Assembly: GCA_028706745.1 (NCBI GenBank)
Contig: JAQTVM010000008.1
Coordinates: forward strand, 1 to 64,000
Origin: Candidatus Nanoarchaeia archaeon
Lineage (GTDB): Archaea > Nanobdellota > Nanobdellia > SCGC-AAA011-G17 > GW2011-AR17
Direction of reading: 5' to 3'
DNA length: 64,000 nucleotides
The position numbers and the translations under genes were made by a program. This document shows, one piece after another, positions 27,227 to 50,300 of this stretch. The notes under the pieces are model-generated. The model made no database searches, had not been told where the DNA came from, and saw only the letters and a list, made by a program, of their open reading frames with translations. The stretch's first letter is position 1, and each line of letters opens with the position of its first letter.

Positions 27227-28525
27227 TTAACGCGTCCCTTTTCTCCCCCAGTATTTTAGCGCTTCCATAAGTTCAGGGCATTTTTTTGCAGCTACTGCCA
27301 AATCAATGCCTTCCATATAAGCCTCAACAGCTTCCCTCATTGCTCTTGCCCCTGCATAGCTTCCGCCCGGATGCCCGTGAATTCCTCCGCCAATCTGAAG
27401 CATTATGTCAGTGCCGAGCTTGTCCATTACCTTATCAACAAGCAATGGGTGCAATCCGCCTGATGAAACAGGGAATACAGGTTTTGTGCCGAACCATTCT
27501 TGTGGCAGGGTATGGAGTTTCTCATTTGCTTCAATCTTCTCATCAACAATCTGGCTGTTCAAGTGCATAACCTCTTCCTTGCTTCCGACAAGCTTTCCCA
27601 CATTTGCAGTGCCTATATGCAATTGGTCAACTCCCAATAATCTTGCGCATTTTGCAACGCAGTTCATTGAAAAGCCGTGCGTTGGAACTCTTGTCATTGC
27701 TCCGTGCATCGCCCTGTGCGCGTGCAATGCTAATCCTAAATCTCCGCATATTTCCCTTACAGAAGAAACAGCTGCCCAGCCGGTTGTGATGATGTCAATC
27801 ATTGCATATTCCCCGCCCTGCTCTTTGATGAACTTGGCTCTTTTTTCCATCTCTTTCAAAGTGGGTCCTGTTATGTTAATCAAATAGCTTTTTTTCTCGC
27901 CTGTCTGCTTTTCAATCCTGTCCCTTACTTTCAGGGATTCCCTTACTCTTTTTTCAAACGGGTTAAATGCCTGATTGGAAAGATTTTCATCATCCTTCAA
28001 TAAGTCAAGCCCGCCTTCCCAAATCTGCCTTCCAACCTCAACGTGCTGGCTGGTAGTTAATCCGACTTTTGGCTTTGCAACAGAAAGCATTAACGGCCTG
28101 TCATAAACCTTGAATATGCTTCTTATGCCTTTTTTTCCGAATTTTGGTCCGGGAAATGATTTTACAATCTTTTTTGTGAATTGCATATCTTCCAATCTTA
28201 ATGCATCAACAGCCTTCATCCCAAATACATTCCCGGCGATTGAAGCAAGAATCTGGCTCATGTTTCCTTCTTCAAAATGCTCTTCTGGATATGCTATCTT
28301 AATCCATTCGCCTTTTGCCTCATACACTTTTGCAGCAACTGCCTTTACATTTTTGTAATTCATTGCAGCCATCGGGCTCCATGTGCCAACTGAGCTTTCA
28401 GCAGCTACCGCGCCCCATGCTCTTTTTGCAGAGCTCCACTTTGGAACTTTCACCCTGAAACTTGCAATTACATCATGAGAATCCGGCTTGTAATTCATGT
28501 CTATGAAATCTTCGTATCCTGCCAT
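27227..28525 (-). CDS. rbcL: Ribulose-bisphosphate carboxylase, form III
   Basis: KPKVGLT, GGLDLLKDDENLSNQAFNPF (carbamylated Lys site), HAHRAMHGA, GKLVGSKEE loop 6, LQIGGGIHGHPGG. Confidence 0.95.
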   Translation of the reverse strand: MAGYEDFIDMNYKPDSHDVIASFRVKVPKWSSAKRAWGAVAAESSVGTWSPMAAMNYKNVKAVAAKVYEAKGEWIKIAYPEEHFEEGNMSQILASIAGNVFGMKAVDALRLEDMQFTKKIVKSFPGPKFGKKGIRSIFKVYDRPLMLSVAKPKVGLTTSQHVEVGRQIWEGGLDLLKDDENLSNQAFNPFEKRVRESLKVRDRIEKQTGEKKSYLINITGPTLKEMEKRAKFIKEQGGEYAMIDIITTGWAAVSSVREICGDLGLALHAHRAMHGAMTRVPTHGFSMNCVAKCARLLGVDQLHIGTANVGKLVGSKEEVMHLNSQIVDEKIEANEKLHTLPQEWFGTKPVFPVSSGGLHPLLVDKVMDKLGTDIMLQIGGGIHGHPGGSYAGARAMREAVEAYMEGIDLAVAAKKCPELMEALKYWGRKGTR

Positions 28526-28654
28526 TATACCACGCTCCTTTTTATCTCTTTAATAATGGGTTTATAGGTTTATAAAATTGTTGTATGTTTTTTTTCAGGC
28601 ATACAACCGGAAACGCTTATATATTCCTTAAACATATCCCTGTTAGATTTAACC

Positions 28655-28728
28655 GGAGGAACAAAATGAGCAAACCTCCCGAGCGAATGCGAAGGGAGGT
28701 TACGAATGGAGGAACAAAATGAGTAAAC
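28655..28728 (+). repeat. 21-bp direct repeat (SD+start codon) flanking a palindromic element
   Basis: GGAGGAACAAAATGAGCAAAC (28655-28675) and GGAGGAACAAAATGAGTAAAC (28708-28728); hairpin AACCTCCC...GGGAGGTT between (28673-28701). Confidence 0.85.
28666..28722 (+). CDS. 18-aa leader peptide (uORF) overlapping M18 start
   Basis: MSKPPERMRREVTNGGTK*; own SD GGAGG; TGA overlaps ATG of downstream gene (ATGA). Confidence 0.5.
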   Translation: MSKPPERMRREVTNGGTK

Positions 28729-30092
28729 ACGAAACTTCTGAAAAGGCGCTTGAGGCTTCAAAACGCAATATTGATATTCTTGTGCAGGATTACATGAATT
28801 ATCTTGATTCTGCAAGAACTCCAACAAAGGCAGTCAGGGCGGCGGCTTCTATGCTTGAAAAAAAAGGCTTTGTAAAATACAATCCCGGAATGAAATCCGG
28901 ATGCGCGGAACAAATTTATTTCATGGACAGGAACAATGTAAATATCGCGGCTGTGGCGTTTGGACAAAAGCCGGTTTCAATGGGCTTGAACATTGCAGGA
29001 GCGCATGTTGATTTCTGCACTTTAACAAACAAGGTTGTTTCTGCAATTGAAAAGTCAGATGGGGTGTATCTTGACACAAGACCTTACGGCGGGTTTTATG
29101 CGCATCAGTGGATGGACAGGCCCCTTGTTGTGATAGGGGAAACGCTTGTAAAAGTGAAAAAGGCTGAAAGGCAGCTTGCCGAGTGGCAGATTCAGGGCAA
29201 TATACCTGAGCCGACAATACACAATCCCAGAGGATATAAAGATGGGGCAAAATCATACAATGATATGTTTCCGCTTGAAAATCTTGATGTCTTTACAGGG
29301 TACAAAGATATAAAATCATTTCTCAAGGCAGTGAACAAGGCGTCATCAAGGCAGGATTTGCGCATTGCAAAAGAGGACTTTAATTCAGGATTTAACTTGT
29401 TTCACGTTGTGCCTTCTGAAAAAACATTAAAATTAGGCAATTACATAATCGGCTATGGGCACGATGACAGGGCGTGCATGTTCTCTGCATTGCAGGCAGT
29501 AACTTCAGTTAAAAACCCTGAATATACTTCAATTGCATTGGGTGTTGCAAGGGAAGAGATTGGCTCTTCAAGCGTTGGAAGCGCGAATGACATTTTTCTT
29601 GAGCAAGTAATCAGGGCATTATCAGGTATGTCTGGCTTTTCTCAAGACTTGCAGTATATATATGAGCGTTCTGTGATGCTTTCGGCAGACGTTGACATTG
29701 CATACACTCCGCAGAATGAGCATGTTTCTGACAAGAACAACTGCGCGCAGTTTGGAAAGGGCGCCGCGCTAGTGATTGCAAACGGCTCAAGCGGAAACCC
29801 GACAGGCAACATAATAATGCCTAATGACCTGGCTTACATTGAAAGGTTCCTTGACAAAAGGAATCTGGCATACCAGGTTACTGCCCTGCCTTCAAGAGTG
29901 GGAATTGGGGGCGGAGGCGGGACAATCGCGGAATACTACAGCCAGAGAGGAATACTGACAGCCGACTTGGGAGTTCCTGTGGGCAACATGCACGGAACAA
30001 CATCTAGAATTTATGCGGCTGACCTTGATTCAACAGTTGAATGTTTCAAGGCGCTGTTTGAAAGGCAGGAAGAAAGGAAGAATTGGGGTTAA
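28719..30092 (+). CDS. M18-family aminopeptidase
   Basis: AGAHVDFC, YGHDDRACMFSALQA, REEIGSSSVGSAND, SADVDIAYTPQNEH, GNMHGTTSR. Confidence 0.85.
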   Translation: MSKHETSEKALEASKRNIDILVQDYMNYLDSARTPTKAVRAAASMLEKKGFVKYNPGMKSGCAEQIYFMDRNNVNIAAVAFGQKPVSMGLNIAGAHVDFCTLTNKVVSAIEKSDGVYLDTRPYGGFYAHQWMDRPLVVIGETLVKVKKAERQLAEWQIQGNIPEPTIHNPRGYKDGAKSYNDMFPLENLDVFTGYKDIKSFLKAVNKASSRQDLRIAKEDFNSGFNLFHVVPSEKTLKLGNYIIGYGHDDRACMFSALQAVTSVKNPEYTSIALGVAREEIGSSSVGSANDIFLEQVIRALSGMSGFSQDLQYIYERSVMLSADVDIAYTPQNEHVSDKNNCAQFGKGAALVIANGSSGNPTGNIIMPNDLAYIERFLDKRNLAYQVTALPSRVGIGGGGGTIAEYYSQRGILTADLGVPVGNMHGTTSRIYAADLDSTVECFKALFERQEERKNWG

Positions 30093-49978: not shown

Positions 49979-50102
49979 TGGGCCCCACGGGATTTGAACC
50001 CGCGACCACTGGCTGTCCTAAGCTTATGTACCAGTGCTAGCCATATAAGACCAGTGCTCTAATTGCCCGAATTTTTAATTCTCCAGGCTGAGCTAGAGGC
50101 CC
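49979..50102 (-). tRNA. tRNA-Ile(UAU) with two introns (50063-50082 D-loop; 50015-50043 at 37/38)
   Basis: Spliced form GGGCCTCTAGCTCAGCCTGGTTAGAGCACTGGTCTTATAAGCCAGTGGTCGCGGGTTCAAATCCCGTGGGGCCCA (75 nt); full cloverleaf, U33, A73. Confidence 0.88.
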
Positions 50103-50140
50103 GTCTTATCGCTGATAGAAAGGAATAAGGCAGATATTTA

Positions 50141-50225
50141 AACCTTTCGAGCGCAGCGAAGAAAGGTTAGGAACGAAGTGACTAAACCTTACGCCTGGGG
50201 CGTGAGGTTAGGAACGCAGTAATTA
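50141..50225. repeat. Tandem hairpin modules (~44-bp period) upstream of tRNA-Ile
   Basis: AACCTTTC-GAGCGCAGCGAA-GAAAGGTT + AGGAACGAAGTGACTA, then AACCTTACGCC-TGG-GGCGTGAGGTT + AGGAACGCAGTAATTA. Confidence 0.75.
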
Positions 50226-50300
50226 AATATTTTTAGGAATTCCGCAAATCAATTCCCGCAAACCGAAACCTATTAAAGGCGCAAGAATATTACTATTTTA

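Follow-up and report, generated by a model that had tools for sequence, protein, structure and literature searches.

Why should an aminopeptidase gene of a nanoarchaeon carry its SD motif and start codon twice, with a hairpin in between? The gene encodes an M18 aminopeptidase of 457 amino acids (28719–30092, + strand; Pfam Peptidase_M18, E 1.6e-42) and lies in the 64,000-nucleotide stretch of contig JAQTVM010000008.1 analysed here, hereafter the window. The direct repeat GGAGGAACAAAATGAG[C/T]AAAC occurs at 28655–28675 and at 28708–28728 (both + strand), 21 nt long, identical at 20 of 21 positions (95%) and with a spacing of 53; the upstream copy contains SD1 (GGAGG, 28655–28659), and the downstream copy SD2 (GGAGG, 28708–28712) and the gene's ATG (28719–28721). 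A predicted uORF of 18 codons, MSKPPERMRREVTNGGTK, runs from 28666 to 28722 on the same strand, and its TGA overlaps the gene's ATG (ATGA, 28719–28722), an overlap of stop and start like that of translationally coupled pairs. A preliminary description of the locus had listed the 21-nt repeat, the hairpin and the 18-codon uORF with its ATGA, and all of these were reproduced exactly at their positions. Divergent from the M18 gene, the minus strand carries a RuBisCO large-chain gene (27227–28525; Pfam RuBisCO_large, 2.9e-87), here in a Nanoarchaeota genome.

The only close M18 ortholog found, in a genome of another genus (G005; 65% identity), begins MAKCKTS where the window gene begins MSKHETS, which supports the start at 28719. 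It has a single SD and a single ATG, with a TATA-like element (TTATATATA) 54 nt before the ATG. In the window, a TATA-like promoter element predicted from the sequence alone (TTATATATTC, 28617–28626, + strand) begins 49 nt 5' of the uORF ATG and 102 nt 5' of the gene ATG, so that by comparison with G005 the upstream start occupies the expected ancestral position. Judged by this promoter spacing and by the family described below, the gene probably started at the upstream repeat copy originally, and the mRNA should contain both starts. The check for a single-copy empty site proposed at the outset could be made in part: G005 has a single SD/start, but within the genus the sister species have no M18 gene at which an empty site could be sought. 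A scan for related loci with the M18 protein as query returned no match.

The first hairpin (28673–28701, + strand) consists of AACCTCCC (28673–28680), GAGCGAATGCGAA (28681–28693) and GGGAGGTT (28694–28701). Its stem is 8 bp long, and further in a GC..GC pair closes a loop of 4 nt; the z-scores of the window hairpin fold were -3.4 as DNA and -2.7 as RNA. A second, weak hairpin of 4 bp (28700–28726, + strand) can be drawn between TTAC (28700–28703) and GTAA (28723–28726), enclosing a GA..GA tail (28704–28722) and thereby SD2 and ATG2 in its loop; it is absent from the predicted folds of the window copy. No Rfam match was obtained in the window, and the loop motif with mismatches occurs there at chance frequency. 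The general layout of the element is X - [GA-GC-N3-4-GC-GAA] - X' - t3 - GA...GA - t3' - X, and its inner GC-GNA-GC resembles the GNA mini-hairpins of DNA, which are known for their high stability.

The same structure recurs throughout the genus, which is sampled unevenly by four draft genomes. Before any covariance model was built, a simple search for CCGAGCGNANGCGAAGGG with up to 2 mismatches returned 3, 2, 8 and 8 matches in the window genome and three congeners; the reversed control pattern gave 0–1 matches per genus genome, and the motif was almost absent from 56 other genomes of the order. With a covariance model built from 20 copies, the four genus genomes yielded at least 33, 33, 45 and 50 copies (E <= 0.01), counts that are lower bounds as part of the candidates was scored, and the 56 other genomes of the order yielded zero copies at E <= 1. 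Over 150 copies with a common hairpin core are dispersed in the genus, as is typical of small palindromic mobile elements. The window copy (28671–28709, + strand) scores 52.9 bits against the model (E 5e-12), being itself among the 20 seeds, and its 53-nt spacing is the family mode. A second, intergenic member lies at 50139–50176 (+ strand), flanked by the direct repeat TAAACCTT; within 50139–50230 it is followed by another copy-like string (TTAGGAACGCAGTAATTAA), and a related copy is found at the orthologous place in G002. Nearby on the minus strand (49979–50105), a tRNA-like sequence with an intron (GGGCCCCACGGGATTTGAACCC...) was recognized by eye; ARAGORN made no call at the settings used. 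Across 85,462 species genomes, a two-part pattern matched at 18 loci, of which three Nanoarchaeota MAGs (OS_PC_MetaG.mb.129, UBA9640 and Yes70-37) account for 16. Matches on a viral contig and in Parcubacteria and Saprospiraceae fitted the hairpin model poorly and were set aside as look-alikes. Mini-hairpin strings of the GARCGNAGYGA type, present in one MAG each of Saprospiraceae and Parcubacteria and in a phage contig (L150, L157, L160), may hint at a broader class of such motifs despite their poor fit to the family model.

Sites that are filled in one genome and empty in another reveal precise insertion: 34 such comparisons for 26 copies were obtained among the four congeners, a set that the window copy itself stands outside. 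In one pair, the filled site L089:11308 reads tacaaaAATG[insert]AATGagcatgaac, and the empty site L129:1733 reads tacaaaAATGagcatgaac. The net insert is mostly 44–62 bp long; a longer hairpin variant reaches 101 bp, and a single intergenic outlier measures 161 bp. Longer variants with extra hairpins also occur at start codons (L128:14807, L069:9659 and L108:2173; X1–X2 distance 101 in the first two). Read from the filled and empty sequences, the target duplication spans 3–4 bp around the ATG at start-codon targets and about 7–10 bp in some others, and flanking repeats of at least 7 nt border 28 of 102 copies vs 8.8 in shuffled sequence. About 20 of the 26 copies with empty sites are start-codon insertions. 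The preliminary description had proposed a palindromic element that inserts at a start codon with target duplication; for the family this proved right, on the strength of dispersed copies in the genus and of the empty sites, with the duplication being short.

The stems are maintained by compensatory changes. In the outer stem, 25 cells changed on both sides vs 5.9 after shuffling (20 copies), and in a larger set of 125 copies the figures were 250 vs 75, in an alignment that was fitted to the structure and is hence biased toward it; of 102 copies, 62 have a pairing second stem vs 23.7 ± 3.7 when shuffled. Orthologous filled sites likewise retain the stem by paired changes (GATCTGC/GTGGATC at L125, GATGCGC/GTGCATC at L115), which could mean that a host function is under selection, that the palindrome is repaired or that the element has moved again.

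Start codons are strongly over-represented among the sites. Slightly more than half of the copies (54/102) are flanked by an ATG upstream and by another downstream with which a reading frame begins, 34 lie in reading frames, some of them probably spurious, and 14 elsewhere. With a strict positional limit, 49 of 102 copies sit on a start codon vs 6.4% of random positions (p 4e-31, relatedness ignored), and only 8.3% of AATG sites in element loci open a reading frame. Genes hit include those for ribosomal proteins L14, L23, S8, S19, S4e, L18, L44e, S24e, S27e, L24e and L13, as well as parts of RNA polymerase Rpb1 and Rpb2, Spt4, OapC, a pyruvate:ferredoxin oxidoreductase subunit and RsmB/F. In a subset that includes the window copy, the element is inserted after codon 3 and not directly after the ATG, and its tail ends in AATGA, restoring the start. 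Short-class copies within reading frames (L067, L094, L127, L090, L113), often in KP- or E-rich gene tails, add peptides such as KPSERGEGRLGAPATK. The preference reflects either targeting or the survival of tolerated insertions. Tentatively, the element might actively target translation start sites, possibly because its constant CTT arm pairs with AAG/ATG targets, with a ready-made SD-stop-start module making insertion into essential genes harmless.

The feature ahead of the M18 gene is best explained, with a probability of roughly 0.8, as a copy of a mobile element that is non-coding, forms a double hairpin, measures about 45–60 bp and belongs to a single Nanoarchaeota genus. The family is dispersed, keeps its stems by compensatory changes, is present or absent between sister species, carries short target duplications and is over-represented at start codons. 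When it sits on a start codon, the element cuts the gene off from the former SD and ATG, and its tail brings a new SD and re-forms the ATG, so that the reading frame of the gene is left untouched. A short uORF now opens at the former SD and ATG, and the gene can presumably still be read. Ribosomes would either initiate directly at the new SD or arrive there by termination-reinitiation, either of which would render the insertion nearly neutral and allow it to persist in essential genes. The window copy would have inserted in this way at the start of the M18 gene, the upstream start being the original one, as membership in the family suggests.

The recurrent fate of the old start raises the possibility that the hairpin and a coupled leader peptide were retained to control M18 translation, as the preliminary description had proposed. 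The window uORF ends in ATGA, a layout that in archaea and bacteria is usually strictly coupled (PMC6728339). It has many parallels: a uORF that derives from a start codon and ends at the real ATG or 2 nt before is found in 24 of the 54 start-codon copies, with the stop at -5 in 15 and at +1 (ATGA) in 9, and among the 37 copies of the class inserted directly after the ATG, 21 have a distance of 2 mod 3 (p 0.008, relatedness ignored). The paired changes by which stems keep pairing at orthologous sites would also suit a regulatory role. However, the predicted RNA fold of the window copy leaves SD2 and ATG2 unpaired by the hairpin, and the same element sits in dozens of unrelated genes. In the orthologous filled pair L107 and L082, the leader peptide is not conserved because the uORF has been shortened to 6 codons. 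Since 38 of 54 copies have an SD-like motif ahead of the downstream ATG, certain uORFs terminate early or continue into the gene in frame, and the L082/L107 pair does not keep the uORF, translational coupling is plausible but not required. A dedicated control device is therefore unlikely, although the uORF at its heart is a recurrent product of insertion.

Considerably less probable still is that the copies are ancient cis-regulatory RNAs of these genes which were lost in some species and never mobile. Such RNAs would account for the strong covariation of the stems, also between orthologous filled sites, and for our failure to identify a mobilising enzyme among the Y1 transposases and reverse transcriptases searched as partners. 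They would not be expected to come and go precisely with short target duplications, nor to occur in coding frames, intergenic regions and unrelated genes; the window also gave no Rfam match, and the 56 other genomes of the order gave no copy.

As to those enzymes, Y1 transposases are present in G001–G003 and absent from G000, and no elements were found in the Y1 loci, where a REP-like system would have repeats flanking the Y1 gene; a REP/Y1 transposase link is thus not supported. Reverse transcriptases occur in all four carrier genomes and in one of five other genomes of the family, and they were rejected as evidence of mobilisation, since they look like the diversity-generating-retroelement type and have copies nearby at only 2 of 8 loci examined. 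Reverse transcriptase genes L168–L174 (G000, G002, G003; four in G003) resemble those of diversity-generating retroelements, and L172 has template-repeat-like text directly upstream.

One point that counts against a mobile element at the M18 gene is the length of the repeat, since 21 bp exceeds the 3–10 bp duplications seen elsewhere. The downstream repeat copy is probably element tail plus a short target duplication: the window tail GAATGGAGGAACAAAATGA is that of the L107 subtype (GAATGGAGGAACGGAATGA), and SD2 accordingly looks element-derived. With family duplications of about 3–10 bp and a second SD/ATG supplied by the tail, the repeat may be of mixed origin, its 21-bp identity being partly target duplication and partly resemblance or conversion. 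The identity of the upstream and downstream SD regions over 15 nt may likewise stem from a longer duplication, from conversion or from the similarity of A-rich SD regions. Insertion plus duplication, as first suggested, stands for the family, though at the M18 gene the target duplication need not span the full 21 bp. A purely local event, in which the SD/start region was duplicated in tandem on either side of a chance palindrome with no element involved, would suit a repeat so long and near-perfect (21 nt, 20/21) but is the least credible reading of all. Its simple form is refuted by a hairpin, tail and spacing that fit a family of over 150 genus copies, though a duplication may have come on top of the insertion.

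Our search of the open-access literature, with subscription papers outside its scope, returned nothing on such elements in Nanoarchaeota, and the family of mobile inserts is apparently undescribed so far. The finding is larger than first described: in an archaeon with a small genome, protein-free DNA hairpins of about 50 bp have spread into the start codons of genes for ribosomal proteins, polymerase and metabolism, with the initiation site rebuilt each time. The many natural before/after pairs bear on how archaeal ribosomes choose among a 5' start, reinitiation and a second SD. For gene-start annotation in the genus, the consequence is that N-termini can be placed wrongly, either at the former ATG or by an in-frame extension.

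Among known systems, the double-hairpin elements of Allomyces mitochondria, reportedly described by Paquin et al. in 2000 as two consecutive hairpins with evidence for mobility, resemble the window family but differ in organism and sequence. Rickettsia palindromic elements are also short, palindromic, dispersed in one genus and tolerated in genes, often in frame (PMC10969869); compared by description, they are about 150 bp long and form in-frame fusions, whereas the window family is about 45–60 bp long, prefers start codons and rebuilds SD and ATG. The palindromic GC clusters of yeast mitochondria (GC42) are protein-free hairpins of about 42 bp with short flanking direct repeats, strain-specific presence and absence and a constrained stem (PMC4478555), but by description they are mitochondrial, mostly intergenic and without start-codon preference. 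REP elements and their associated Y1 transposases share small hairpin repeats in high copy number, but REPs are extragenic, whereas the window family has target duplications and no element next to Y1 genes. MITEs are likewise short and non-coding and make target duplications; in the window family, the palindromes seen are internal, with no terminal inverted repeats seen to span the element, and the partners searched were Y1 transposases and reverse transcriptases. Gene pairs that use termination-reinitiation show the same ATGA overlap or 2-nt gap as between uORF stop and gene start (PMC6728339, PMC10666635), although here the upstream frame is a by-product of insertion and not a gene. The family of this genus is best read as a new kind within the small palindromic mobile elements, one with a preference for start codons.
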